DNA of 64,000 nucleotides, taken from NCBI RefSeq assembly GCF_000311785.1, contig NZ_HE978540.1, forward strand, positions 1 through 64,000, in the 5' to 3' direction. The translations under genes and the position numbers were made by a program. Each line of letters opens with the position of its first letter. The stretch's first letter is position 1. This document shows positions 3,600 to 33,927 of this stretch, piece by piece. The notes beneath the pieces are model-generated. The model was not told the DNA's origin and did no database searches. It was given only the letters and a program-made list of their open reading frames with translations. Source of the DNA: Brevibacillus massiliensis (GTDB lineage: Bacteria; Bacillota; Bacilli; Brevibacillales; Brevibacillaceae).

Positions 3600-4366
3600 A
3601 CTTTCAGGCTCCCGTTTACATCTGCATTGATCCTGAACCCTGAGTTGGACACAAAAAGGCCGCGGTGAATGCGTCGCTTGGATGCATATGCTTTTTTCGA
3701 AATCTTCTCCTCATCCAGCGCAGAACAACCGCTGGTGTACGCTTCATTCTGCTTGACAACGGTGATCCCGAGGAGTTTGGCCTTGTAGGTGATGAGATCC
3801 ACAAAACGGGCATGGGGAATCTGTGCAAACATCTTGCGGGGATTCTCTTGCTTGATGTCTTTCTGATCTGCTGAAGAGCGCTTGCGTCAATCGGCAGATT
3901 GTCAGGGTGGGTGACAATCGAAAAACAGTCAACCTGATGACGTTCCTGCATCTTCTTGGACAACGAGAGCTTGAGTACATTCTCCTGAACTCGGATGGCA
4001 AAGTTGGTGAAAATGATTTCGTTTTTGCGATAGGCAACATGCTTCTATCCGGGAGGTTGAGGTGTCCCTTTGTATTTCTGCGGATTCTTCTTGAAGTCTT
4101 TGGATGCGGCAATGTAGCTCTTCCAATTTTGTTCCACCATCTTGAGACAATGCTGATAGGTATGAGAGTGGAGGTACTCCCGGGGCCAATTGGACTTTAG
4201 TTCCTTTTCCAGCTTCACATAAGAGCGAAACCCCTCTTCTCGACACAGGTGATTGGCGATGTTGTAGAGTTTGGTCGTGTGAAACGCCAAATCCTCCAGA
4301 ATCGCAAGCTGCTGTGCCGACCAACGGGGAATCCACTTGTAGACCAGTTTGATTTCGATTCACCTC
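3600..4366 (-). pseudogene. tnpB remnant (RNA-guided nuclease, frameshifted and internally deleted)
   Basis: On the minus strand the TnpB N-terminus can be followed from about 4346 (EIKLVYKWIPRW, then FHTTKLYNIAN, then HSHTYQHCLKMVEQNWKSY) to about 4050. A frameshift and a large internal deletion follow. The conserved C-terminus returns in another frame at 3600-3832: IPHARFVDLITYKAKLLGI, then NEAYTSGCSALD and the RuvC-III-like INADVNGSL. The central RuvC-I and RuvC-II catalytic regions are missing, and zinc-ribbon spacing is disturbed. A GGAGG ribosome site remains before the original start but is now out of frame. Confidence 0.8.
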
Positions 4367-8230: not shown

Positions 8231-9769
8231 ATGAGCGCGAAACAAATGGATACACACCTTCAAGAGCAGCGGATCCAGGCTACGGGAATTTTAAAATGGG
8301 TCGAAAGGATCGGAAACAAGCTTCCCAATCCCTTCATGCTCTTCATTTACTTAATTGTGATTCTGATGCCTTTGACAGCAATCTTATCTATTTTCAATGT
8401 TGCTGCGATCGATCCGATCAAAAACGAACAGGTCCACGTAAAAAACCTGCTCAGCCAGGAAGGTCTGCAATGGCTTTTGCCTAACATCATCAAAAACTTT
8501 TCCTCCTTCCTGCCGCTGGGGTCCATCTTGACCCTGATGCTCGGGGTAGGTTTGGCAGAGAAAGTGGGCCTGCTGGAGTCCGTCATCCGAAAAATGTCGT
8601 TACGCGTCAGTGCGAAGTATGCCAGTTATCTGGTAGCGTTCATCGCATTCTTCAGCCACGTTTCATCCGATGCGGCATTCGTCATTATGCCTCCCCTTGG
8701 CGCGCTGATCTTTCTTGCCGTGGGACGCCACCCCGTAGCTGGATTGCTTGCCGCCATTGCCGGTGTCGGTTCCGGTTTTACCGCGAATATCTTAATCGTC
8801 ACGACCGATGTTCTGCTCTCGGGAATCAGCTCGGAAATCTCCAAATCGGTTGATCCGAATGTGACGGTGAGCGTCTTGGACAACTGGTTCTTCATGGCGA
8901 CTTCCGTCTTCCTGCTTTCAGCGGTTATCGGTTTCATCACAGACAAGTTCATCGAACCGAAGCTGGGCAAGTATCAAGGCAGAACCGATAAAAAATTGGA
9001 AGACTTGACACCCGTGCAGAAGAAAGGCCTGCGGGCGGCAGGAATTGCAGCCATCGTGTTTATTGCAATCATGGCAGCTTTGGTTGTACCGGAAAACGGC
9101 CTGCTTCGCGATCCAAAAACCGGGACCATCGTTCCTTCTCCATTCATCTCGGGTATCGTCCCTGTTATCCTGCTCTTCTTTTTCACGGTTTCTATCGCAT
9201 ATGGAATCACCGTGGGAGCGATTAAGAAGCAGAACGACATCCCTGCGCTGTTAACCGATCCGATCAAAGGCATGGCCGGTTTTATCGTAATGGTCTTCCC
9301 GCTTTCCCAGTTCGTCGCGATGTTCAACTGGAGCAACATGGGAAGCTTCCTCGCCCTGTTTATTACCGATCTGTTAGAAAAATTAAACATGACAGGCGCG
9401 CCTGTATTTATCGGATTGATGTTCCTGTCTGCGTTTCTCTGTATGTTTATCGCCAGCGGTTCTGCGATCTGGTCCCTGTTGGCACCCGTATTTGTTCCGA
9501 TGTTCATGGCGCTTGGCTACCATCCCGCCTTTGCGCAAATCACGTTCCGGATTGCTGATTCTTCCGTGATCCCGTTCGCGATTATCTCACCGTTTATTCC
9601 GTTATTCTTGAACTTTTTGCAGGAGTACCAGAAGGATGCCAAATTAGGAACGTACTATTCCTTGATTTTCCCTTATCCAATCGCCATCTTCCTGGTTTGG
9701 ACGCTCCTGCTGGTTGTCTGGTATTTCCTGGGTCTGCCGATCGGTCCCGGTGTTTATCCCAGAATGTAG
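8231..9769 (+). CDS. abgT: AbgT-family transporter (p-aminobenzoyl-glutamate type)
   Basis: A 512-aa multi-pass membrane protein with about 11-13 hydrophobic segments. It begins with the AbgT-typical stretch VERIGNKLPNPFMLFIY. Family blocks include HVSSDAAFVIMPPLGALIF, GVGSGFTANILI and SGSAIWSLLAPVFVPMFM. Family members take up p-aminobenzoyl-glutamate or export antimetabolites such as sulfonamides. Here two M20 hydrolases follow directly, which favours uptake of an amidated substrate for intracellular cleavage. Start ATG at 8231 has GGGGG 6 nt upstream. First gene of an abgT-abgA-abgB-like operon. Confidence 0.88.
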   Translation: MSAKQMDTHLQEQRIQATGILKWVERIGNKLPNPFMLFIYLIVILMPLTAILSIFNVAAIDPIKNEQVHVKNLLSQEGLQWLLPNIIKNFSSFLPLGSILTLMLGVGLAEKVGLLESVIRKMSLRVSAKYASYLVAFIAFFSHVSSDAAFVIMPPLGALIFLAVGRHPVAGLLAAIAGVGSGFTANILIVTTDVLLSGISSEISKSVDPNVTVSVLDNWFFMATSVFLLSAVIGFITDKFIEPKLGKYQGRTDKKLEDLTPVQKKGLRAAGIAAIVFIAIMAALVVPENGLLRDPKTGTIVPSPFISGIVPVILLFFFTVSIAYGITVGAIKKQNDIPALLTDPIKGMAGFIVMVFPLSQFVAMFNWSNMGSFLALFITDLLEKLNMTGAPVFIGLMFLSAFLCMFIASGSAIWSLLAPVFVPMFMALGYHPAFAQITFRIADSSVIPFAIISPFIPLFLNFLQEYQKDAKLGTYYSLIFPYPIAIFLVWTLLLVVWYFLGLPIGPGVYPRM

Positions 9770-23188: not shown

Positions 23189-24343
23189 TTACGCATTCCA
23201 GCTGTATTTGTATTGTGTATCCTCGACCGCCTGCGCCTGTTTGACCACGCGCAGGGGACGGAAGGTATCGAGCATGACGGCCAGCTCCTGCGTCTCTTTT
23301 TTGCCGATGCTCGCTTCTACCTTGCCCGGGTGGGGCCCATGGGGAATTCCGCACGGATGAAGGGTAAGCGAGCCTTCGCTGATGCCCTTGCGGCTCATGA
23401 AATTCCCCTTCACATAGTAGAGCACCTCATCGCTGTCCACGTTGCTGTGGTAATAGGGAGTAGGGATCGCCTCCGGGTGGTAGTCGTACATACGCGGTAC
23501 GAACGAACAGATCACCAGATTGTTCGCCTCAAACGTCTGATGGATCGGCGGCGGCATGTGAATCCGTCCGGTAATCGGCTCAAAATCGCCAATATTAAAA
23601 ATCCACGGATAAAGGTAACCGTCCCAGCCCACGACGTCGAGCGGATGATGGTTGAACAAGTGGGAGTGCAGGAACCCTCTCGACTTGGTGCGAACCTCGT
23701 ACTCCCCTTGGTCCGTGTGGGTCTCCAGCACTTCCGGCCCGCGAATATCGCGTTCACAGAAAGGGCTGTGTTCCAGAAGCTGTCCGTGATGATTCCGGTA
23801 GCGCTTGGGAGTGGTAATCCAGCTCGTCGTTTCGATCACGAGAAACTTCGCTTCCCCCGGGTCCGGCACGATCCGGTAGATCGTCCCCACCGGCATGACG
23901 ATGTAATCCCCGGGCTGGTAGCGCAAGGTCCCGAACATCGTCTCCGCCCTGCCTGTTCCGGCATGGACAAACAACACCTCGTCACCGTCGCTGTTGCGGT
24001 AAAAATAGTCCATCTGCCGGACAGGCTGGGCCACGGCGATCTGCACGTCATCATTGCCGAGCAAATACTGCCTGCCTTCGACAGCATCCCCTGGCTCCGC
24101 ATATTGATGGGTAAAAAAGTGCCGGTGGCAAAGATCGGCCTGCTCTTCATAGGCTAACCGGCAGTCCTTGAGCAGCGCTGAGTGCACGATCCTGGTCGGC
24201 GGGTTGTGATGATACAGGATCGATTGGATGCCGGAAAAACCTTTCGTGCCCATGACTTGTTCCCGATACAAAGAGCCGTCCTGCTTGCGGAAAATCGTAT
24301 GCCGCTTCCGCGGGATTTCCCCCATCTGACGATAAAATGGCAT
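23189..24343 (-). CDS. hmgA: Homogentisate 1,2-dioxygenase
   Basis: A 384-aa non-haem iron dioxygenase that opens the homogentisate ring to maleylacetoacetate. Visible are the cupin blocks HHPLDVVGWDGYLYPW, YYHSNVDSDEVLYYVKGNF (iron His and Glu) and LHPCGIPHGPHPG (iron His). It is of the shorter Gram-positive type. Start ATG at 24343 follows GGAGGAGG at 7 nt; the open frame further upstream overlaps fahA and is not used. Last gene of the catabolic cluster, 20 nt after fahA. Confidence 0.93.
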   Translation of the reverse strand: MPFYRQMGEIPRKRHTIFRKQDGSLYREQVMGTKGFSGIQSILYHHNPPTRIVHSALLKDCRLAYEEQADLCHRHFFTHQYAEPGDAVEGRQYLLGNDDVQIAVAQPVRQMDYFYRNSDGDEVLFVHAGTGRAETMFGTLRYQPGDYIVMPVGTIYRIVPDPGEAKFLVIETTSWITTPKRYRNHHGQLLEHSPFCERDIRGPEVLETHTDQGEYEVRTKSRGFLHSHLFNHHPLDVVGWDGYLYPWIFNIGDFEPITGRIHMPPPIHQTFEANNLVICSFVPRMYDYHPEAIPTPYYHSNVDSDEVLYYVKGNFMSRKGISEGSLTLHPCGIPHGPHPGKVEASIGKKETQELAVMLDTFRPLRVVKQAQAVEDTQYKYSWNA

Positions 24344-24363: not shown

Positions 24364-25632
24364 TTAATTCTCGCTTCGCGCCGGCAGTACCCGGCCCGTT
24401 ACGCTGCCAAATCCAATGCGGTAGCCATCGCCCTGGCACCATCCGCTCATCGTCACCCTGTCGCCATCCTCCAGCCAGACGCGCTGCTGCCCATCTCCCA
24501 GCTGAAGCGGCTCGGCGCCGCGCCAGGTAAGCTCCAGCAGGCAGCCCCGCGATGTTTTTTCCGCGCCGCTGATCGTTCCCGAAGCCAAGAGGTCGCCCGG
24601 GCGCAGGTTGCACCCCCCGACGGTGTGGTGGGCGATCTGCTGTGCCATGCTCCAATAGAGGTAGCGGAAGTTGCTCGTGCAGATCTGCTGCGGTTCGGCC
24701 ATCTCGGCGCCCTGAAGCTCCACGGCCAGTTGGATGTCAAACGCGCCTGCCCCTGTTTGCCGCAAATAAGGCAGCGGCTCGGGATCCTGGTGCGGCCCTT
24801 GGACGCGAAACGGCTCCAATGCCTCGAGCGGCACCACCCAGGGGGAGATCGACGTCGCGAAGTTCTTGGCGAGAAACGGGCCGAGCGGCTGGTACTCCCA
24901 CGCCTGGATATCTCTTGCGCTCCAGTCATTGACGAGCACGAGCCCAAAGATGTGCTCCTCGGCACGATCGATCGGGATCGGTTCGCCCGGTTCATTGCCC
25001 GGGCCGATCAGCCAGCCGATCTCCAACTCAAAATCAAGCTGGCGGCACGGCCCGAAGATCGGGCGCGCTTCATCCGGCCGCTTCATCTGTCCCAGCGGCC
25101 GGCGCACATCCGTGCCGCTCACCACGACGGAACTGGCCCGGCCGTGGTAGCCGACAGGCAGATTCACCCAGTTTGGCATCAGCGCGTTCTCTTTGCCGCG
25201 AAACATGATGCCGACATTTGTCGCGTGGTCCTTGGAAGCATAGAAGTCCGTATAGTCGCCAATTTCCGCAGGCAGGAGCATCTCCACCTCGCTCTGCAGG
25301 CGGAAGGCTTCAGCCCGCAGCGTATCGTTGTCGCGCAAGGCGGGTTCCTGCTCGCTGAGCAGCCGCTGAATCTTCGCCCGTGCCTCCCGCCAGACAGAGC
25401 GCCCCAAAGCCATGAAGGCGTTGAGCGAAGATTGCGCGAACACCGCTCTGCCCCTGAGGGACGTGTCTTCAAAAAAACCGGCCCGCTCCAGTACGGAAAG
25501 ATCAAGCACGCAGTCGCCGATCGCGACGCCGACGCGGGGAGTGCCGCCGCTCTTCGGCCGAAACACCCCGTAAGGCAAGTTTTGAATGGGAAAGTGGGAA
25601 TCCGCCGCTACCTCGATAAATGAACGCTCCAC
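24364..25632 (-). CDS. fahA: Fumarylacetoacetase
   Basis: A 422-aa hydrolase that splits fumarylacetoacetate to fumarate and acetoacetate. Conserved are LPYGVFRP at the N-terminus, [16 protein letters not shown] (metal and catalytic His), [22 protein letters not shown] (metal glutamates), [17 protein letters not shown] and [12 protein letters not shown]. The start is GTG at 25632, 6 nt after GGAGGAGGAG; the frame upstream overlaps the next gene. It lies 16 nt after the unknown 320-aa protein gene and 20 nt before hmgA. Confidence 0.94.
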
Positions 25633-25648
25633 TGTTCTCCTCCTCCTT

Positions 25649-26611
25649 CTATAAGATATGCAAGGCTCGCAAATCGTCACGCGGCTCGTCAAAGCTGCAG
25701 GTGCCGTAGGAACGCAGCAGTGCGCCGCGCAGCCGGGCGATGGCGGGGGCGGAGAGCGATAGATCCCGCCAGGCCAATCCATCGGCGGTAAAGGAGAAGC
25801 TGGCGGAATCTTCGTCGGCGAGGATTTGCTCGATCAGCTCCTCCCCCGCATTCCGCTCATGGGCCAGCATCCCGGCCGTAAACACATTGACAAAGCCGTG
25901 CATGCGGGTCTCCACTTCAGACCGATACATCCGGATCGGATGGTGCAGCCCGGCGGTAAATTTCAACGGAATCCGGCGGTCGCGGCAGCCCGCAAGGACG
26001 AATGCCAGCTCAGCCGGCGAGGGAAAGGCAGCAGCGTGCAGGCCGCCGGTCCGAAACTTGAGGCCGATGGTCATGATTTTGCCCTCGCTGGCGTTGTACG
26101 CAGCGATCGCATCCAGGGCGACCGTCATCTGCCGCCTCCAGTCCGGAGAAAAAGGGTATGCGGCTTCGCAAAACAGCTCCATCCCCTGCCGCTGTACCTC
26201 TGCCGCAATCGCCTCCAACAGCCCGTTTGCGGGAGGGGCAGCCGAGGGAAGCGGCAGTTCCAGAACGCCGATGTCTGCGATATCCGCGTACCGCTCGCAA
26301 AAGTCTTGAATCTGCGTCAGGTCTGCACGCAGTCCCGCAAGGCATTCCGCCTCATCTTCACTCTTCCGCCCCAAGGCGGCACAGCTCAAAGGATGATCCT
26401 CCGAAAACAGCGACAGATGCGGTTCCAGCTCGTTCAACCGCGCAGCCGGGACGACAAAGCGCCCCAGCATCCAGGCGTCATCGCTCCTTTGGTAAGCGGC
26501 ATAACGGCGGACCGACTCCGCGAGCGGCAGGCTGGCGGGCGGAAACAGCCCCGCGTAATCGAACAGACCTTCCAAAAACGCGCCTACACTGCCTATATTC
26601 ACTTCTCTCAC
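25649..26611 (-). CDS. Protein of unknown function linked to homogentisate genes
   Basis: A 320-aa cytosolic protein that I cannot assign. It begins [19 protein letters not shown] and continues with a [18 protein letters not shown] block. Later blocks are [18 protein letters not shown] and [12 protein letters not shown]. Alternating strand and helix with a KFTAGLHHP motif suggest an alpha/beta barrel, which is an inference. The ATG overlaps the stop of the flavin reductase gene by 4 nt, and fahA follows at 16 nt, so it is within the operon. Since no GST-type maleylacetoacetate isomerase or HPPD is seen nearby, this protein is a candidate for a missing step. Confidence 0.75.
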
Positions 26612-27150
26612 TCCTTTCGCTTGAGTTCTTGTTGCATGTGTATGAGTTCGGCTGCCAAATTCTTCATGCGCTTCTCTACGTCCTCGTCGATGATTTTATT
26701 TTCCCTGTTGAAATGATCCGTGTGGGCGTACACATAGCTGGGAGCGACAAAGGCGCGGAAGTAACCGGCGATCGGCTTTGCCTGGTTTTCGATGACCAGA
26801 TAGTGCTGATAGGTTCCACCGTTGGCCGCAAAGCCCATCACTTTGTGGCGAAACACGGAAGGGGGAACCAGATCAAACACGTTTTTTAAAGGAGCCGGGA
26901 TGGACCCGTTAAAGACTGGAAAGCCGATCAGATAAAAATCCGCTTCCGTAATCTCGGCGATCACCCTCCTGGTGTCGTCGTTGTAGTGAGCGGGATCTCT
27001 GCCATCGCAAAACTGAAGCTCGCAGCCGCGCAGATCCAGCAGGCGCACTTCGACGTCAGGGGCGATTTGCCGAACCTCTTTCAGGATCTGCTCTACCAGG
27101 CTCGCGGTTTTTGCCCCCAGGATGGTGCCGGAAATCCCCAGCAGCTTCAT
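26608..27150 (-). CDS. NAD(P)H-dependent FMN reductase
   Basis: A 180-aa flavodoxin-like reductase of the NADPH-dependent FMN reductase family. The FMN phosphate loop is at the N-terminus (GISGTILGAKTASLV), followed by FPVFNGSIPAPLKN and GFAANGG. It would supply reduced flavin to the luciferase-like monooxygenase encoded 22 nt upstream in the same operon, a common two-component arrangement. Substrate specificity cannot be read directly. Confidence 0.85.
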   Translation of the reverse strand: MKLLGISGTILGAKTASLVEQILKEVRQIAPDVEVRLLDLRGCELQFCDGRDPAHYNDDTRRVIAEITEADFYLIGFPVFNGSIPAPLKNVFDLVPPSVFRHKVMGFAANGGTYQHYLVIENQAKPIAGYFRAFVAPSYVYAHTDHFNRENKIIDEDVEKRMKNLAAELIHMQQELKRKE

Positions 27151-27172: not shown

Positions 27173-28189
27173 TTAGCGGACCGATTCTTCCTTGGCCTGT
27201 TCCCGAAAAGCGGGCATCACTTCGCGGGCAACCAGTTCCATGGACTTCAGCACCTGTTCATGGGGCAGCCCGCCGAAGTTCATCAACATCATGATATGAT
27301 CGCAGCCGACTTCTTTATATTTTTTCAACCTGCCGATGACATCTTCGGGCGTGCCGATCAGCAGCTGCTCGCGGGCCTCCAGATCTTCATACTGAGCCCC
27401 TTTCCCGTATTGGCGGGTTTCCAGGTACAAATTTACATGGGGTTTGGCGATTCGCTCCGCCGCTTCTCTCGTCTCCGCTACAAACGTATGCAGGGCGAGC
27501 GGAGTATTTATCTTTCGCTCGTCATGTCCCGCCTCCAGATACGCCCTCCGGTAATCGCTGATGACCTGGCGCAACTCCTCGATGCTGTTGCCGGAAACGT
27601 AGGGCACACCCATGATGTTGTAGCCCATCTTCCCGACGTACTGGGCTCCCTGGGAACGCAGGGCGCCGATCCAGAGCGGGACCTGCTTCTGTTCGGGGAT
27701 GACTTGCAGCTTTATATCGGTAAACTGGTAGTACTCTCCGTGATGCGAGAATGTCTCCCCTGTCCAGGCTTTTTCGATCACGGCCAGGGCATCGTTGAAG
27801 CGGAAGGCCTTGTCTTTGCCGTCGACGTTAAATCCGGCGAATTCATGAGGCAGGTAGCCGCTTCCCAGCCCCAGATTCAAGCGCCCGCCACTCAGCACGT
27901 CCAACAAGGCGTAGTCCTCGGCCACCTGAATCGGATTGTGAAAAACCAGAGATACGATCGACACGCCCAGCCGGATCCTTTTTGTCCGCTCGGCTGCAGC
28001 CGTCAGCAGGATATGCGGCGAAGTCAGGATGCCATACTCGCTAAAATGGTGTTCCGCAAACCAGACGGATTCGTATCCGAGCCGGTCGGCCTCCACAGTC
28101 TGCTCCAGTACCTCCTGCAGCAGCTTGGCGGGCGTGCGGTCAAACTTCGCTTGGTAGTTGTCAAATACGGTAAACAGTCCAAATTTCAT
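27173..28189 (-). CDS. LLM-class flavin-dependent monooxygenase
   Basis: A 338-aa luciferase-like monooxygenase with the expected TIM-barrel blocks: WFAEHHFSEYG near the N-terminus, RIRLGVSIVSLVFHNPIQVAED, LDVLSGGRLNLGLGSGY and LWIGALRS. Such enzymes use FMNH2 from a partner reductase to oxygenate small molecules. Start ATG at 28189 follows GAGGAGG at 8 nt; the open frame to 28255 runs into attenuator A. Its expression should depend on read-through of that element. In this cluster it may prepare an aromatic substrate for ring cleavage, which is inference. Confidence 0.85.
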   Translation of the reverse strand: MKFGLFTVFDNYQAKFDRTPAKLLQEVLEQTVEADRLGYESVWFAEHHFSEYGILTSPHILLTAAAERTKRIRLGVSIVSLVFHNPIQVAEDYALLDVLSGGRLNLGLGSGYLPHEFAGFNVDGKDKAFRFNDALAVIEKAWTGETFSHHGEYYQFTDIKLQVIPEQKQVPLWIGALRSQGAQYVGKMGYNIMGVPYVSGNSIEELRQVISDYRRAYLEAGHDERKINTPLALHTFVAETREAAERIAKPHVNLYLETRQYGKGAQYEDLEAREQLLIGTPEDVIGRLKKYKEVGCDHIMMLMNFGGLPHEQVLKSMELVAREVMPAFREQAKEESVR

Positions 28190-28241
28190 CGCGTTGTCCT
28201 CCTCGTTTTCAAGAAAATGAATTTTATTTCCAAAAAGGAAA

Positions 28242-28338
28242 AACCAGCGCGCCAAATGGCCAAGCAGGCTCTTTGAGCGGCTGGTTGATACCTACTACCT
28301 GAGAAGAAGGAGCGCTTCTCCCCCGTAGATAACTCAGC
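28242..28338 (-). promoter_or_regulatory. Attenuator/riboswitch-like element A
   Basis: Read on the minus strand: GCTG (28338-28335) and GTT (28333-28331), then ATCTAC, a GGGG run, a GAGAAG/CTTCTC hairpin, AGGTA, GTAGGTATC, AACCAGC (28286-28280), a spacer, and GCTGGTT (28248-28242) ending in a T run. AACCAGC can pair with upstream GCTG-A-GTT as an extended closing stem, or with downstream GCTGGTT as a terminator. Element B has the same parts in the same order. It lies between the first DUF3870 gene and the monooxygenase gene. No known riboswitch consensus matched. Confidence 0.65.
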
Positions 28339-28344
28339 AGGGAA

Positions 28345-28656
28345 TTATTTCATTTCGCAATAGCGATCATAGGCTTGCTGCAGCGCATAGATGATCGCGC
28401 CCTGGCCGGGGACCAGCATGGTCGCTCTCAGTTTCTCTTTTGCTTCGCCAAGGCCATTCTTGATGCTCATCCCTCGCAGTTGATGACTGACAAACTCGTT
28501 CGTCTTGTCCATCACGAAGGAAAAGGATATATCCTCGATAATTTCTTCGTCGCGGTTAATTACCATGACACAGCCAACCAGTTTGTACACTTCGTACATC
28601 GTGGTCCCTTTCGACACCTCCGCAAAGCCGGCAACCAGTACGGTGTTTTTGCCCAA
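28345..28656 (-). CDS. DUF3870 domain protein (copy 1)
   Basis: A 103-aa protein of the DUF3870 family, function unknown. Shared with copy 2 (33598-33927): VLVAGFA, KGTTMYEV, VGCVMVINRD, a SFSFVMDKTNEFV block and a C-terminal RYCEM. Start is TTG at 28656 with GGGGG about 10 nt upstream. It lies 18 nt after the fused Liv ATPase gene and 7 nt before element A. The small size, two copies and their fixed position next to similar leader elements suggest a regulatory, perhaps RNA-binding role; that is inference. Confidence 0.8.
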   Translation of the reverse strand: MGKNTVLVAGFAEVSKGTTMYEVYKLVGCVMVINRDEEIIEDISFSFVMDKTNEFVSHQLRGMSIKNGLGEAKEKLRATMLVPGQGAIIYALQQAYDRYCEMK

Positions 28657-28674: not shown

Positions 28675-30195
28675 TTAGTGTCCGCTTAAATAGGCCGCCC
28701 GGATTCGATCGTCGTGCATCAGTTGATCAGGATTGCCTGCGATTTTGATCCTGCCGTTTTCCAAGACGTAAGCGAAGTCAGCGATTCTCATGGCCGCCCG
28801 CGCATTCTGTTCTACGAGAAGAATGTTCATTCCCATCTGTTTGAGCTGGTACAGCTTGTCGAAGATTTCCTCGACAATCATCGGAGCGAGACCTAAAGAC
28901 GGTTCATCGAGCATCAGTACTTCCGGATGCGACATCAGTCCCCGGGCGATCGCCAGCATCTGCTGTTCGCCTCCGCTCAGGGTGCCGGACAGCTGCTTGC
29001 GCCTTTCCTTCAGCACCGGGAACATCTGATACATCTTTTCCAGGTCTTCGAAAACCTGCTGCCGGCCATGCCTGCTGCAGTAGGCTCCAAGGCGCAAGCT
29101 TTCCTCCACGGTGAGCTCCGGGAACATCCCCCTGCGCTCGGGGACGAGGTTGATCCCCTGACGGGCCAGCTGCTCCGCCGGGATGCCGGTAATGTCCCGC
29201 TCCCGGAATGTGACTTTTCCCGCCCTGGCCGGATACAGCCCGGCGATCGTTCCGAGCAGCGTCGACTTCCCTGCCCCATTGGCCCCGATGATAACGGCAA
29301 GTTCTCCTTTGTACAGACGGAGCGAAACTCCCTTGAGGGCGTGAATGTCGCCGCGGCAGGCGTGCAGATCGGCTGCTTGCAGGACGGGCGGCTCCTGTTC
29401 GGTGCGGCTTTTTCTCGCGTATTCCCGCTGGACATCGCGGCCGAGGTAGGCCTCGATGACGCGTTCGTCCCGGCTGATTTCCTCCGGAGTTCCCTCTGCT
29501 ATTTTGCTGCCAAACTCAAGGACGATGATCTTGTCGGACACCTCCATGACGGTAGCGAGATCGTGTTCGATCAGGAAGATGCTGAGCCCTTCGGCCTTCA
29601 AACGCCTGATCAGCCGGGCCATCCCCGCCACTTCTTCGCGGCTCATCCCGGCCATCGGTTCATCGAGAAGCAGCAGCTTCGGCTCCAGAGCCAAGGCGCG
29701 GGCCACCTCCAGCAGGCGCTGTTCGCCAAAGGACAAATCCTTGGCAGGGTGATCTGCCAGATGAGCCAGGCCGACCAAAGCGAGTTTTTCCATGGCAGCC
29801 CTTTTTGCTTCCGTCTCCGCCTTTTGCACGGAAGCAAACCTGAGCATCGACGGGAGCAGGCTGGGGTTTCGCGTCTTGGGCAAAGCGACCATGACATTCT
29901 CAATGACTGTTAGATTATGGAAGATTTGCAGGTTTTGAAACGTCCTGGCAATCCCCAGCGCAGCGATCTGATGGGGCTTCATGTTGTCGATTTTCCGGCC
30001 GAGGAACCGCACCTCTCCCGCATCGGGCGTGTACATCCCGGTAATGCAGTTAAACGTGGAGGTTTTCCCTGCGCCATTCGGCCCGATGAGAGAAACGACC
30101 CGGCCGGGCTCTACCTGAAAAGAATTGTCGTTGACCGCCACCACGCCGCCAAAGCGCTTGGTTACCCGTTCAAATTCAAGCAGACAAGTGCTCAC
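28675..30195 (-). CDS. Fused LivG-LivF-type ABC transporter ATPase
   Basis: A 506-aa protein with two complete ABC ATPase domains in one chain. The first (residues about 1-240) is LivG-like: Walker A GPNGAGKTS, signature LSFGEQ, Walker B LLLLDEPMAG. The second (about 270-506) is LivF-like: GANGAGKST, signature LSGGEQQ, Walker B VLMLDEPSLGL. In most organisms these are separate genes. It energises the transporter with the two permeases upstream. The ATG overlaps the LivM stop by 4 nt. A linker of about 25 residues (RKSRTEQEPP) joins the halves. Confidence 0.92.
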   Translation of the reverse strand: MSTCLLEFERVTKRFGGVVAVNDNSFQVEPGRVVSLIGPNGAGKTSTFNCITGMYTPDAGEVRFLGRKIDNMKPHQIAALGIARTFQNLQIFHNLTVIENVMVALPKTRNPSLLPSMLRFASVQKAETEAKRAAMEKLALVGLAHLADHPAKDLSFGEQRLLEVARALALEPKLLLLDEPMAGMSREEVAGMARLIRRLKAEGLSIFLIEHDLATVMEVSDKIIVLEFGSKIAEGTPEEISRDERVIEAYLGRDVQREYARKSRTEQEPPVLQAADLHACRGDIHALKGVSLRLYKGELAVIIGANGAGKSTLLGTIAGLYPARAGKVTFRERDITGIPAEQLARQGINLVPERRGMFPELTVEESLRLGAYCSRHGRQQVFEDLEKMYQMFPVLKERRKQLSGTLSGGEQQMLAIARGLMSHPEVLMLDEPSLGLAPMIVEEIFDKLYQLKQMGMNILLVEQNARAAMRIADFAYVLENGRIKIAGNPDQLMHDDRIRAAYLSGH

Positions 30196-31217
30196 AGGGT
30201 TTCACCTCTCCGTCTGGCCTTTGCACTGCGGAAGATGCCGATGATCCCGTTCGGCATGTAAATCATCATCAGCACCAGCAGCAATCCAAAGAAGATGACT
30301 TCGATCGAGCCGCCGGAGGTGGCTTGGCCGATCAACAGTGGAACGTACTCTCTGAGCAGTTCGACCAACAGCGTGACGACCAGCACGCCCACCATCGCTC
30401 CCCAGACGGATACCAGCCCGCCCAAGACGGCCATCACCACAAACTTGATCGACATGTCGAAATTGAACACCGCCGGGCTGACAAACCCCATGTAACAGGC
30501 GTAAAGACCTCCGCTCAAACCGGCGAACATCCCGCTTATCACAAAAGCCTGCAGACGGTACCGGCCGGTATCAATCCCCATCGCTTCCGAAGCGGCCTGA
30601 CTGGCGTGCATCGAACGAAGGTTTCTGCCCCAACCGGACTTGACCAGGTTGCTGCACAAGATCAGACAGACGATGGCCACGATCCACACGAGGGCAAACC
30701 AGGCGGCATCACCCGAAACCTGGAGCGGACCTGCCTGCAGGGCGGGAATTCCGATCAATCCGGAAGATCCGCCCGTCCACTCCGTCTCCTCGATCAGGAC
30801 AATGTTGACGACGATGCCAAAGCCGAGAGTGGCCAGCGAAAAATAGTGTCCCCGCAAATTTCTTGTGATCAGCCCCAAGCCGAAAGCGATCAAGCCGGAT
30901 ACGATCACCGCCAGCGGAATGCCCAGCCAGGGGGAAATTCCCAGATGGACGGCTCCTGTGCCCGTGACGTAGGCGCCGATGCCCCAAAAGGCTGCTCCGG
31001 CCAGCGAAACCAGGCCGGCAAACCCCATCAACAGCGTAATCCCGACCGTCGTGATGCAGTACAATCCCATGATCACGAACACACTGGTCAGATAGCTGCC
31101 AAGCAGGAGCGGCCCTGCGAACAGGACCGGCAGCAGCAGGAGCAGCCAAAGCCACGCCCGGCTTCTGATGCGCATGGGATGGGTCGGTTTTGTCTGTTCC
31201 AGCATTTTTTCCATCAT
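30192..31217 (-). CDS. Branched-chain amino-acid-type ABC permease (LivM family)
   Basis: A 341-aa permease with about nine hydrophobic segments and LivM-family blocks such as LRGHYFSLATLGFGIVVN and GGLYACYMGF. It pairs with the LivH-type permease encoded 12 nt upstream. Liv-type systems carry branched-chain amino acids, but many also carry aromatic acids, amides or urea. The linkage to homogentisate genes favours an aromatic substrate here. Confidence 0.9.
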   Translation of the reverse strand: MMEKMLEQTKPTHPMRIRSRAWLWLLLLLPVLFAGPLLLGSYLTSVFVIMGLYCITTVGITLLMGFAGLVSLAGAAFWGIGAYVTGTGAVHLGISPWLGIPLAVIVSGLIAFGLGLITRNLRGHYFSLATLGFGIVVNIVLIEETEWTGGSSGLIGIPALQAGPLQVSGDAAWFALVWIVAIVCLILCSNLVKSGWGRNLRSMHASQAASEAMGIDTGRYRLQAFVISGMFAGLSGGLYACYMGFVSPAVFNFDMSIKFVVMAVLGGLVSVWGAMVGVLVVTLLVELLREYVPLLIGQATSGGSIEVIFFGLLLVLMMIYMPNGIIGIFRSAKARRRGETL

Positions 31218-31229
31218 GGCCCACCTCTC

Positions 31230-32105
31230 TTACACCCGTTTCCCGCTTCTTGCGCCAAGGATCCCCTGCGGTCTGAAGATGAGCACCAAGAGCAGGATCA
31301 GAAAGGCGATTGCATCCTTGTATCCGGATGAGACCAACCCTGCTCCGAGCGACTCCAGGACGCCGAGCAGCACGCCGCCCGCGACAGCCCCCGGAATGCT
31401 GACCAAGCCTCCCAGCACCGCCGCGACAAATCCCTTCAAACCAATCATCAGGCCCATGTCATAGGTAGCCAGCGAGACCGGGGCGACCGACACGCCGACT
31501 GCCCCGGCCAGTCCCGCCCCCAGGACAAAGGACAAGAGGGCCATCCGATTCGGAGAAATCCCCATCAGCCGGCTTACCTCCCGGTTCATCATGCAGGCCC
31601 TGAGCGCCGAACCCATCGCCGTCCGCTCGAAGAAAACAAACAGCGCCAGCATACAGATCAGGGCGATCCCTCCGATAAAGAAATCCTGCAGGGGAATGAC
31701 CGCCCCGAGGAAGCTGACCGGCTCTCCCGCCATGAACGGCGGAATGGTCAAGGGACTGCTTCCCCACAGCAGTTGTGCAAGTCCCCGCAGTGTCGTAGAC
31801 AGCCCGATCGTGATGATGATCAGTACGACATCGCTGCTGTACCTGGCAGGGTACAGGGCCAGCCGCCACGCGACGGCCCCGACCGCCGCCGAGACGAGAA
31901 TCGCGGCAATGCAGGCAATCCACAGCGGTGCTCCGGCGGAAGTCATGGCAGCCCCCGACATGGCGGCCACCATGACAAACTCTCCCTGGGCAAAGTTGAT
32001 CACGCCGTTGACGTTGTAGATCGTGACAAATCCCACGGCAATCAGCGCGTAGATTCCGCCTACGGTCAGGCCGGAAAACAACAATTGGACCAAATCTGAA
32101 CTCAT
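31230..32105 (-). CDS. Branched-chain amino-acid-type ABC permease (LivH family)
   Basis: A 291-aa permease with about eight helices. Family blocks: GGIYALIAVGFVTIYNVNGVINFAQGE is split here as GIYALIAVGFVTIYNV then NFAQGEFVM, and later GLKGFVAAVLGGLVSIPGA. It lies 15 nt after the substrate-binding protein gene and 12 nt before livM in one operon. Confidence 0.9.
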   Translation of the reverse strand: MSSDLVQLLFSGLTVGGIYALIAVGFVTIYNVNGVINFAQGEFVMVAAMSGAAMTSAGAPLWIACIAAILVSAAVGAVAWRLALYPARYSSDVVLIIITIGLSTTLRGLAQLLWGSSPLTIPPFMAGEPVSFLGAVIPLQDFFIGGIALICMLALFVFFERTAMGSALRACMMNREVSRLMGISPNRMALLSFVLGAGLAGAVGVSVAPVSLATYDMGLMIGLKGFVAAVLGGLVSIPGAVAGGVLLGVLESLGAGLVSSGYKDAIAFLILLLVLIFRPQGILGARSGKRV

Positions 32106-32120
32106 CCTACCTTCTCCTCG

Positions 32121-33368
32121 CTATTGCGCCTTTACCCAGCGGCCGCCTTTTACCTGCAGAATGATCACATCCTCCGGCTTCAGGCCCTGATGATCGTCCG
32201 GGCTGAGATTGAAGACGCCTGTCGTGCCGACCAGGTTTTGAATCTTCTCCATGTTTTCCCGGATCGTCTCCCGGTTTACCTGGTCTCCCGCCATCTCGAT
32301 CGCTTTGGCCAAGAGCAGCATCGTATCGTAGGCCATCCCGTCGATCGGGCTGACACCCGTCTTAAACTTCGATTCAAAATCCTTGACGTACTTCGTGATC
32401 AGCTCCTTTTGCGGATCGCTGTCTGCCAGCTGATCGGCCACCCACACTTTTCCGGAAGCGATGTACGTTCCTTCCGCTGCCTCGGGACCCGCCAGTTCCA
32501 CAAATGCGTTGGATCCGGCACCGGCACTGTAGATCAGCATGGAATCCAGCTTCAACTCCCAGAAATTGCGGTTTACGATCGAGGCGGAAGGCGGTATCGC
32601 CCAGACGACCACGGCGTCCGGATTTTTTGATTTGATCGTGGTAAGCTGCGGCTTCATATCCTTGTCTCCGCCGCCGAATTTCTCCGTCGCCACGATGTTG
32701 AGCCCGTATTCCTTCGCCACCGTTTCAAACGACTTTCTGCCGTCTTCCCCGTAGGCGTTGTTCATCGCCATAAAAGCGACATTGGTCTTCCCCTTCTCTT
32801 TCAAAAACGCGGCGATGCTGTTGGAGATGTCGTTGTTGTTGCTCGGCGTCTTAAAGATATACGGGCGCTCACTCGCCGGCTCCACGATCCCGTCCCCGGA
32901 ACCGACGGACACCAGCGTTACCTTCTGTTGATTCATGTACGGCACGATCGGCATCGTCGTCGGAGTCGTCCCTCCGCCGATCACGGCCAATACCTTGTCC
33001 TGCTCCACCAGCTTCTTCGTCACCACGAGAGATTGTGTTTCACTAGACTCATTGTCATAGACGACCAGCTCAATGGGGACGCCGTTAATGCCGCCTTTCT
33101 GGTTCAACTCCTCCACCAGCATTTCCACCGCATTCTTCTGCGGCACGCCCCATACCGAGGCACCTCCCGTCAGCTCCAGATTGATCCCGATCTTATAGCT
33201 GGCGGGCTTCTCTGTTTTTCCGGCAGCTCCGGAGCCGGAGCCGCTTTCCCCGGCTCCCCCGGCCGCCGCTCCGCCTGAGCCGGCCTGAGTGCCGGAGCAA
33301 GCCGCCAAGCTGAACGTCAGAAAAAATACCATGAGTACCGCCAAAGCAAAGCGCATTCTTTTCAACAC
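32121..33368 (-). CDS. ABC transporter substrate-binding lipoprotein (LivJ-like)
   Basis: A 415-aa periplasmic-binding-fold type I lipoprotein. It has a signal peptide with the lipobox LAACSG, a Gly/Ser/Ala-rich linker, then the receptor domain starting YKIGINLELTGGASVWG, with VIGGGTTPTTMPIVPYMNQ and GMAYDTMLLLAKAIE. GTG at 33368, TTG at 33365 and ATG at 33356 are candidate starts after a G6 site. The ligand is unknown; context suggests an aromatic compound. Its mRNA leader contains element B. Confidence 0.9.
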   Translation of the reverse strand: MLKRMRFALAVLMVFFLTFSLAACSGTQAGSGGAAAGGAGESGSGSGAAGKTEKPASYKIGINLELTGGASVWGVPQKNAVEMLVEELNQKGGINGVPIELVVYDNESSETQSLVVTKKLVEQDKVLAVIGGGTTPTTMPIVPYMNQQKVTLVSVGSGDGIVEPASERPYIFKTPSNNNDISNSIAAFLKEKGKTNVAFMAMNNAYGEDGRKSFETVAKEYGLNIVATEKFGGGDKDMKPQLTTIKSKNPDAVVVWAIPPSASIVNRNFWELKLDSMLIYSAGAGSNAFVELAGPEAAEGTYIASGKVWVADQLADSDPQKELITKYVKDFESKFKTGVSPIDGMAYDTMLLLAKAIEMAGDQVNRETIRENMEKIQNLVGTTGVFNLSPDDHQGLKPEDVIILQVKGGRWVKAQ

Positions 33369-33399
33369 AATCCCCCCATTTTTGTTTTGAAAATGAAAA

Positions 33400-33532
33400 A
33401 ACCAGCAGAACAGAAGAGAAGAAGCAAGAACATGCCAAAAAGGCCGTTCGCTTTCCTGTCTTCCATCCCGCTGGTTGTTTATCTACTTCACCCAGGTCGG
33501 GCTCATGTCCCTTCCTGCATAGATAATCCAGC
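33400..33532 (-). promoter_or_regulatory. Attenuator/riboswitch-like element B
   Basis: Minus strand: GCTGG (33532-33528), A, TTATCTA (33526-33520), then an inner domain with nested CAGG/CCTG and GGG/CCC pairing, TAGATAA (33485-33479), AACCAGC (33476-33470), a 63-nt spacer, and GCTGGTT (33406-33400) with TTTTC. TTATCTA pairs perfectly with TAGATAA. CCAGC can pair with the upstream GCTGG (antiterminator) or, as AACCAGC, with GCTGGTT (terminator). The element lies in the 5' leader of the substrate-binding protein gene, about 20 nt after the predicted transcription start. Confidence 0.7.
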
Positions 33533-33551: not shown

Positions 33552-33581
33552 ATTATATTACAAAAAGTATGATTATTGCAA
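33552..33581 (-). promoter_or_regulatory. Sigma-A-type promoter of the transport-catabolic operon
   Basis: On the minus strand TTGCAA (33581-33576) and TATAAT (33557-33552) are 18 bp apart. Transcription would start near 33545, just ahead of element B. Confidence 0.7.
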
Positions 33582-33592
33582 GCGCTTTTACA
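33577..33592 (-). promoter_or_regulatory. Catabolite-responsive element (cre) for CcpA
   Basis: TGTAAAAGCGCTTGCA on the minus strand closely fits the cre consensus TGAAANCGNTTNCA-type pattern. It overlaps the -35 box, so CcpA binding should repress the operon when a preferred carbon source is present. Confidence 0.65.
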
Positions 33593-33597
33593 AGTGA

Positions 33598-33927
33598 TCA
33601 ATATTTGACCATCTCGCAATACCGTTCATGCGCGACCCGCAGGGACTGAATGATGGCACGCTGCGCCGGGGCCAGGAAGCGCTCCTCAATCTCCCGGACG
33701 ATCTCGTCCACCCCATGCCGCACCGATTTCCCCCTCACCAGCGAACAGATAAATTCATTCGTGACCTCCATGATAAAGGTAAAAGAAACATCCAGGATCA
33801 GATCGGTATCCCTGTCAATGATCAAGACACAGCCAACCGTTTTCTGCACTTCATAAAGTGTCGTGCCTTTTGGGAGTTGGGCAAATCCAGCCACGAGAAC
33901 ACAACGCGGGTTGTCTTTCCAGTCCAT
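33598..33927 (-). CDS. DUF3870 domain protein (copy 2)
   Basis: A 109-aa paralogue of the protein at 28345-28656, with VLVAGFAQLPKGTTLYEVQ, VGCVLIIDRD, FTFIMEVTNEF and a C-terminal RYCEMVKY. Start ATG at 33927 has an AAGGGA site about 9 nt upstream. It is the first gene of the cluster. Its stop codon lies 6 nt before the cre site, so it may be on a separate transcript from the genes behind the internal promoter. Function unknown; see element B. Confidence 0.8.
   Translation of the reverse strand: MDWKDNPRCVLVAGFAQLPKGTTLYEVQKTVGCVLIIDRDTDLILDVSFTFIMEVTNEFICSLVRGKSVRHGVDEIVREIEERFLAPAQRAIIQSLRVAHERYCEMVKY

Follow-up and report, generated by a model that had tools for sequence, protein, structure and literature searches.

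DUF3870 genes and paired antiterminator/terminator elements in Bacillota: a proposed family of antitermination regulators

The window, by which we mean the whole analysed stretch of 64,000 nucleotides from Brevibacillus massiliensis, holds an operon with the order DUF3870 gene, element B, ABC transporter, second DUF3870 gene, element A, monooxygenase, FMN reductase, 320-aa protein, fumarylacetoacetase and homogentisate dioxygenase (Table 1). Both DUF3870 products belong to family PF12986, with scores of 58 and 81.4 bits against a curated cut-off of 22. The identification of the homogentisate dioxygenase rests on Pfam; its score for the NCBIfam equivalog TIGR01015 is below the cut-off. The fumarylacetoacetase matches its family from residue 54 onwards, and its true start probably lies near 25632. 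The 320-aa protein is kept in related clusters, beside monooxygenase or fumarylacetoacetase genes.

Table 1. Genes, RNA elements and candidate upstream sites of the operon, numbered by position in the window.
Feature	Position	Strand	Remarks
DUF3870 gene 1 (GFAQLPKGT type)	33598..33927	-	Pfam PF12986, E 5.9e-23
cre-like box TAAAAGCGCTTGCA	33590-33577	-	overlaps promoter-like site; consensus match only
Promoter-like site TTGCAA-18-TATAAT (33581-33552)	33552..33590	-	just upstream of element B; consensus match only
Element B antiterminator	33470..33532	-	ext5 GCTGG 33532-33528; ext3 CCAGC 33474-33470
Element B P1	33526-33519 with 33486-33479	-	TTATCTAT paired with GTAGATAA
Element B intrinsic terminator	33396..33476	-	AACCAGC (33476) to GCTGGTT (33400); T run to 33396
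ABC transporter, branched-chain-amino-acid type	28675..33368	-	led by element B
Transporter binding protein	32121-33368	-	
Transporter permeases	31230-32105, 30192-31217	-	
Transporter two-domain ATPase	28675-30195	-	
DUF3870 gene 2 (GFAEVSKGT)	28345..28656	-	Pfam PF12986, E 1.2e-15
Element A antiterminator	28280..28338	-	covariation-supported; competes with terminator for ext3
Element A ext5 GCTG	28338-28335	-	A bulged
Element A P1 5' TATCTAC	28331-28325	-	
Element A P2 hairpin	28323-28301	-	
Element A P1 3' GTAGGTA	28295-28289	-	
Element A ext3 AACCAGC	28286-28280	-	
Element A intrinsic terminator	28239..28286	-	5' arm AACCAGC 28286-28280; 3' arm GCTGGTT 28248-28242; T run 28243-28239
Luciferase-like FMN monooxygenase	27173..28189	-	Pfam PF00296; first gene past element A
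NADPH-dependent FMN reductase	26608..27150	-	Pfam PF03358
320-aa protein	25649..26611	-	no Pfam or NCBIfam match
Fumarylacetoacetase (ORF as listed)	24364..25782	-	TIGR01266, E 1e-194
Homogentisate 1,2-dioxygenase (HmgA-like)	23189..24343	-	PF20510, PF04209

Element A is intercistronic and begins 6 nt downstream of the stop codon of DUF3870 gene 2. It is a genuine paired antiterminator/terminator element, predicted to act as an attenuator. The segments that an earlier note on this DNA had picked out (GCTG-A-GTT 28338-28331, ATCTAC 28330-28325, GTAGGTA, AACCAGC, GCTGGTT and the T run) are all in place. AACCAGC has an upstream partner, GCTG-A-GTT, with which it prolongs the seven pairs of P1 (TATCTAC/GTAGGTA) around the P2 hairpin, and a downstream partner, GCTGGTT, followed by TTTTT; the latter pairing gives the hairpin and T run of an intrinsic terminator. 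Separate folding gives -19.4 kcal/mol for the antiterminator and -24.6 kcal/mol for the terminator, and when the whole stretch is folded the terminator prevails. None of 200 dinucleotide shuffles folds as well as the complete leader (z -3.5); of its halves, the terminator alone has z -4.0 and the antiterminator alone only z -1.6. The earlier note's mutually exclusive pairing of AACCAGC is thus borne out by folds and shuffles, as well as by conservation in relatives well above chance level. Its suggestion that the catabolic half of the operon could be tuned separately is plausible, as A sits between the transport and the catabolic genes.

Element B (33532-33400) has the same plan as A, with z -5.3 against shuffles and a much stronger terminator (-42.7 versus -21.8). 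It lies between DUF3870 gene 1 and the binding-protein gene and leads the transporter half of the operon. Exactly two covariance-model matches at E ≤ 0.1 are found in the window's own genome, and these are A and B. Since a promoter-like site and a cre-like box, the latter scored against the cre consensus, precede element B, it can act as a 5' leader. When the 150 nt upstream of 30 chosen elements were scored in the same way, boxes with at least 13/14 matches were found in 8 of the 30 (0.3% of shuffles), and with at least 12/14 in 21 of the 30 (9.5% of shuffles). Judging by these matches, element leaders may also be under catabolite control by CcpA.

Covarying homologues of the element occur in related operons. 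Alignment A4 comprises 26 GFAQ-type elements (L058, L130 and opp-type rows were excluded by hand). Both-side changes occur in 12 of its 13 antiterminator pairs (ext and P1 together), and 94% of the cells of these pairs hold standard pairs, compared to 28-47% with the partner slid, figures that have to be read with the knowledge that some rows were found by a pairing detector, which favours paired cells. P2 is also predicted in A4, again with both-side changes. The shared ext3 pairs with both ext5 and the arm adjoining the T run in 24 of the 26 elements; in L034b and L057 our script detected no T run that qualified. For a selection of eight elements out of a search across the phylum, P1 is 98% paired and both-side changes occur in five of its eight pairs. 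The antiterminator half is structured in P1 and P2; its internal loop is asymmetric, and the A adjoining P1 is invariant. The letters of P1 are often kept between the Bacilli and the phylum-search groups (TTATCTAC, TTATCTGC), which suggests recognition of its sequence as well as its shape. If the elements were plain terminators of fixed polarity, with an incidental upstream complement, the terminator would be the stable fold, as it is; the both-side changes in both sets of elements, the keeping of P1 sequence across types and the presence of elements in leaders far from DUF3870 genes make this highly improbable.

At gathering score, Rfam gives no match in the window or in 18 phylum-search loci, in agreement with the earlier note, which had recognised no known riboswitch or T-box; among 20 further loci run, three matches were obtained, none at the position of an element. 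Low-threshold matches at A and B are far below gathering scores, mostly to microRNA families on the long hairpin of B, and T-boxes and known riboswitches were rejected. One Aneurinibacillus locus with an element (L065) also holds c-di-AMP and azaaromatic riboswitches by Rfam (4081-4207 and 9332-9451).

How general is the arrangement? The same layout recurs after DUF3870 genes in the window's family and in 30 named Bacilli loci that were read. For counting we used a detector that requires a terminator with a T run and, for its 5' arm, a second partner upstream, beside a P1 of at least six pairs; its score threshold, 28, is the score of element A. It was applied to 119 of 145 DUF3870 matches, those dropped having the same protein core or less than 250 nt downstream. 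Of the 119 distinct DUF3870 genes, 56 reach the threshold and 63 fall below it. The corresponding counts are 55 of 960 for other ORFs of these loci and 16 of 595 for shuffles. By type the counts are 25/43 for GFAQ-PKGT, 20/27 for the opp type, 4/9 for the CoA-transferase type, 5/34 for GHARLP and 2/6 for the rest. Ten of 20 DUF3870 genes in the phylum-search loci L190-L207, which are mostly from outside Bacilli, pass the same threshold (in L190 the detector picked arms other than those seen by eye), and such switches are also present in Clostridia-like genomes. The protein family itself occurs in 89 of the 299 Bacilli genomes sampled and, in a sample from the whole phylum, in 35 of 249; a set of 14 named control genomes, Bacillus subtilis among them, gave no DUF3870 match.

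Does the element belong with the protein or with the pathway? Covariance model R1 was built only from Bacilli GFAQ-type elements and used with a cut-off of E ≤ 1e-3. We call a genome GFAQ-positive if it scores at least 100 bits with profile A3, a cut placed in the gap between 103.7 and 96.8 once this gap had been seen. In a scan of the 299 Bacilli genomes, which is partly circular because 14 of the 34 GFAQ-positive genomes (including 7 of the 9 outside the window's family) had contributed elements to R1, the model matched in 33 genomes, and 32 of these are among the 34. In the remaining two (G059 and G015) the element was found by local search, bringing the count to 34/34. The 33rd match, in the DUF3870-negative genome G179 (E 9e-4), lies by eye inside an aldolase-like reading frame and was counted as a false positive; weak matches above the cut-off occur in G193 (E 0.014) and G212 (E 0.057). 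The homogentisate dioxygenase gene hmgA is present in all 34 GFAQ-positive genomes and also in 49 genomes without this type of DUF3870, and none of the 49 has a match at E ≤ 1e-3 (G101 has one at E 0.03). Outside the window's family the counts are 8/9 and 0/49; the genomes are related, and P values for such counts would overstate their independence. The contrast is also seen between members of one genus: in g18, two genomes (G137, G157) have both the element and GFAQ-type DUF3870 and three (G049, G101, G187) have neither, while in g83 one (G197) has both and one (G177) neither. Nine hmg regions without the GFAQ type were read and by eye are built differently, mostly headed by an HPPD-like gene; hence the wiring of the pathway is not constant and the comparison is imperfectly matched. 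Attenuators of an unrelated kind may be present in these regions.

The circularity of R1 is removed in a held-out test with a second model, R2, trained on 14 elements from the window's family only. R2 matches nine of nine GFAQ-positive loci outside that family (L115, L116, L119-L123, L180, L184) and none of nine hmg loci without the GFAQ type (L239-L247); of six further Bacilli loci, five match and L080 does not. In the phylum-search loci (58 kb) R1 gives four matches at E ≤ 1, all directly 3' of a DUF3870 gene. Whether a genome has the element goes with the type of DUF3870 that it encodes, and not with its having the homogentisate pathway.

This bears on a simple alternative, that the RNA itself binds an aromatic metabolite as a riboswitch, with DUF3870 no more than a common neighbour or a protein of the pathway. 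The structured P1 and P2, the internal loop and the invariant A would suit a riboswitch, as would the genes led by those elements that were read in context, which serve transport or catabolism and mostly belong to one pathway. However, all 49 hmgA-containing genomes without GFAQ-type DUF3870 are without an R1 match at E ≤ 1e-3, Rfam gave no match at the elements, and the differing switches beside other DUF3870 types and unrelated operons would require many separate riboswitch classes. We find this alternative unlikely. Of the earlier note's reading as a riboswitch or attenuator, the paired antiterminator/terminator stands; as a lone riboswitch candidate it was too narrow. There DUF3870 was one reagent to try in an assay, and the present evidence makes it the prime suspect as a trans-acting regulator.

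We therefore propose, with reasonable confidence, that DUF3870 proteins are antiterminators that control attenuators A and B, likely with a small-molecule ligand. As RNA polymerase leaves the DUF3870 gene (in the case of A) or the leader promoter (in the case of B), P1 would form. If nothing held P1, ext3 would pair with the downstream arm and transcription would stop at the T run, the thermodynamic default. DUF3870, probably together with a small molecule that the operon produces or takes up, would bind the P1 region directly; in the window this ligand might be an aromatic acid en route to homogentisate. Bound DUF3870 would lock ext5 to ext3, no terminator would form and the downstream genes would be expressed. 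That binding favours read-through and not termination we infer from the default fold and from the catabolic nature of the operons.

Not all elements are beside DUF3870 genes. Thirteen genomes have a single R1 element that is remote from every DUF3870 gene, and three more (G016, G017, G037) have an extra element of this kind. Downstream of all 16 unlinked elements, hmgA starts on the same strand at a distance of about 1.1-1.2 kb, and in those that were read a fumarylacetoacetate-hydrolase-like gene lies between. An unlinked element leading an hmgA operon implies that DUF3870 would act in trans. Such elements also bear on ribosome-mediated attenuation, in which a ribosome finishing DUF3870 would cover ext5 or P1 and so set the fold. 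The closeness of element A to a stop codon would fit, but across loci ext5 lies at anything from about 2 to 178 nt after the DUF3870 stop codon, and with the 13 genomes whose only element is remote from DUF3870 this makes the idea scarcely credible.

In several loci of related Brevibacillus (L055, L058-L064, L067-L071, L073, L081) no element was found after the GFAQ-type DUF3870 gene, and the next gene follows directly. In one of them, L058, the DUF3870 gene is flanked by a PAS histidine kinase gene upstream and a GAF-GGDEF gene downstream. Such surroundings might point to some other factor acting in trans, either a protein or a small RNA with a genetic link to DUF3870, that binds the element while DUF3870 serves as an upstream sensor or an accessory; the predicted fold of DUF3870, which is not obviously RNA-binding, could be cited for it too. 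Yet in the loci read no other regulator gene recurs by the elements, and DUF3870 adjoins most of them, so that we hold another factor to be very unlikely and keep DUF3870 itself as the binding protein. In Aneurinibacillus danicus (L056) one DUF3870 gene has four elements around it, among them a tandem of one B-like and one A-like element (3740-3802 and 3942-4000) ahead of a monooxygenase gene.

Several known antitermination systems can be compared with the proposed switch. In the hut region of Bacillus subtilis a small regulator gene is followed by a terminator and then by the catabolic operon, and this order is also that of DUF3870 loci; in the HutP loci that we fetched, a hairpin and a T run follow hutP by eye. 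HutP with histidine and Mg2+ prevents terminator formation, according to the cited part of PMC7430163, and its target there and in the cited part of PMC8934654 is NAG repeats in the terminator sequence. DUF3870 loci, in contrast, have a covarying antiterminator stem that competes for the terminator arm. Homology of DUF3870 to HutP was rejected (hhalign probability 0.2%; no PF09021 match). BglG proteins carry CAT and PRD domains, whereas no CAT or PRD match was obtained in 29 DUF3870 members, and the element is without an Rfam match. For BglG, SacY and LicT, the relevant section of PMC8934654 describes a structured RAT antiterminator that precludes the terminator; the antiterminator hairpin linked to DUF3870 likewise overlaps the 5' arm of the terminator. 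ANTAR antiterminators such as EutV, in the same section, provide protein-dependent antitermination of a catabolic operon, as is proposed here, and their RNA has two hairpins with hexaloops. The DUF3870-linked element is instead one long stem, and no ANTAR family was matched. By analogy, the DUF3870 switch is best read as working like RAT/LicT, with a structured antiterminator, in a HutP-like gene order.

What might the protein be? The AlphaFold model of DUF3870 has a pLDDT of 90, and among solved structures the closest folds are IscU/SufU-like (Z 8.7); Foldseek with the model gave no match at E ≤ 0.001, comparison with PDB sequences gave no convincing one, and HutP and TRAP are absent from the lists of fold matches. 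The predicted IscU-like fold gives no pointer to RNA binding, and we know of no antiterminator with such a fold. The conserved PKGTTLYE segment is the lowest-confidence part of the model; one may speculate that it is a loop which becomes ordered upon binding. The fold might suggest an iron-sulphur role, which is not favoured here; the GCVLIID cysteine is not conserved from one DUF3870 type to another. In Pfam, DUF3870 was matched in all 29 members and no other family convincingly; a weak RNase_PH_C match in five of the 29 (best E 1.1e-4), absent in six proteins run separately, was given no weight. A link between DUF3870 and such switches was not found in print in a search with subscription literature mostly outside it. 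Among the papers covered, DUF3870 and PF12986 are named in one; the cited part of this paper, PMC4387736, applies the name DUF3870/PF12986 to a beta-rich Bacteroides domain protein, and the profile used here does not match the structure described in that part; the PF12986 number may have been mixed up there, or the family may have changed since.

Other DUF3870 types and unrelated operons carry analogous switches. Opp-type genes are followed by a nearly invariant element and, in most loci read, by a gene for a binding-protein-dependent permease. A search pattern for this element hits 19 of 299 genomes, each time beside an opp-type DUF3870 gene, a weak test since the pattern was taken from these same elements; the near invariance of the opp-type P1 also leaves little covariation to count. 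In L114 a GHARLP-type gene is followed by a switch and then by a glutarate dioxygenase gene, with similar layouts in L135 and L136, and in L137 and L193 a CoA-transferase gene is downstream. GHARLP-type genes are mostly without a detectable switch in cis, and this type may work differently.

To our knowledge, few protein families control operons via nascent RNA at terminators. We think it fairly likely that DUF3870 founds a class of antitermination regulators that respond to substrates and are spread through the Bacillota, with a predicted IscU-like fold. Each paralogue would go with a P1-type antiterminator of its own and would control, in cis or in trans, a separate operon for catabolism or transport (homogentisate, glutarate, peptide and CoA-transferase pathways). 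If correct, this would give the DUF3870 family a function and define a new RNA family. Operons whose inducer is unknown, such as those for aromatic acids, glutarate and peptides, would gain a testable switch, and a small inducible RNA-protein pair would be ready for use as a tool.

A few minor observations can be added. DUF3870 genes occur as tandem pairs in L192 and L206, and one contig (G516:C35) has three successive matches. In L179 an identical element is present twice on one contig (272-331 and 2984-3043), with the same sequence just 3' of each. In L240, from a genome with no GFAQ-type DUF3870, a high-scoring switch-like structure lies in the gap before 3276 (reverse strand), ahead of an HPPD-type operon, and is possibly another attenuator.
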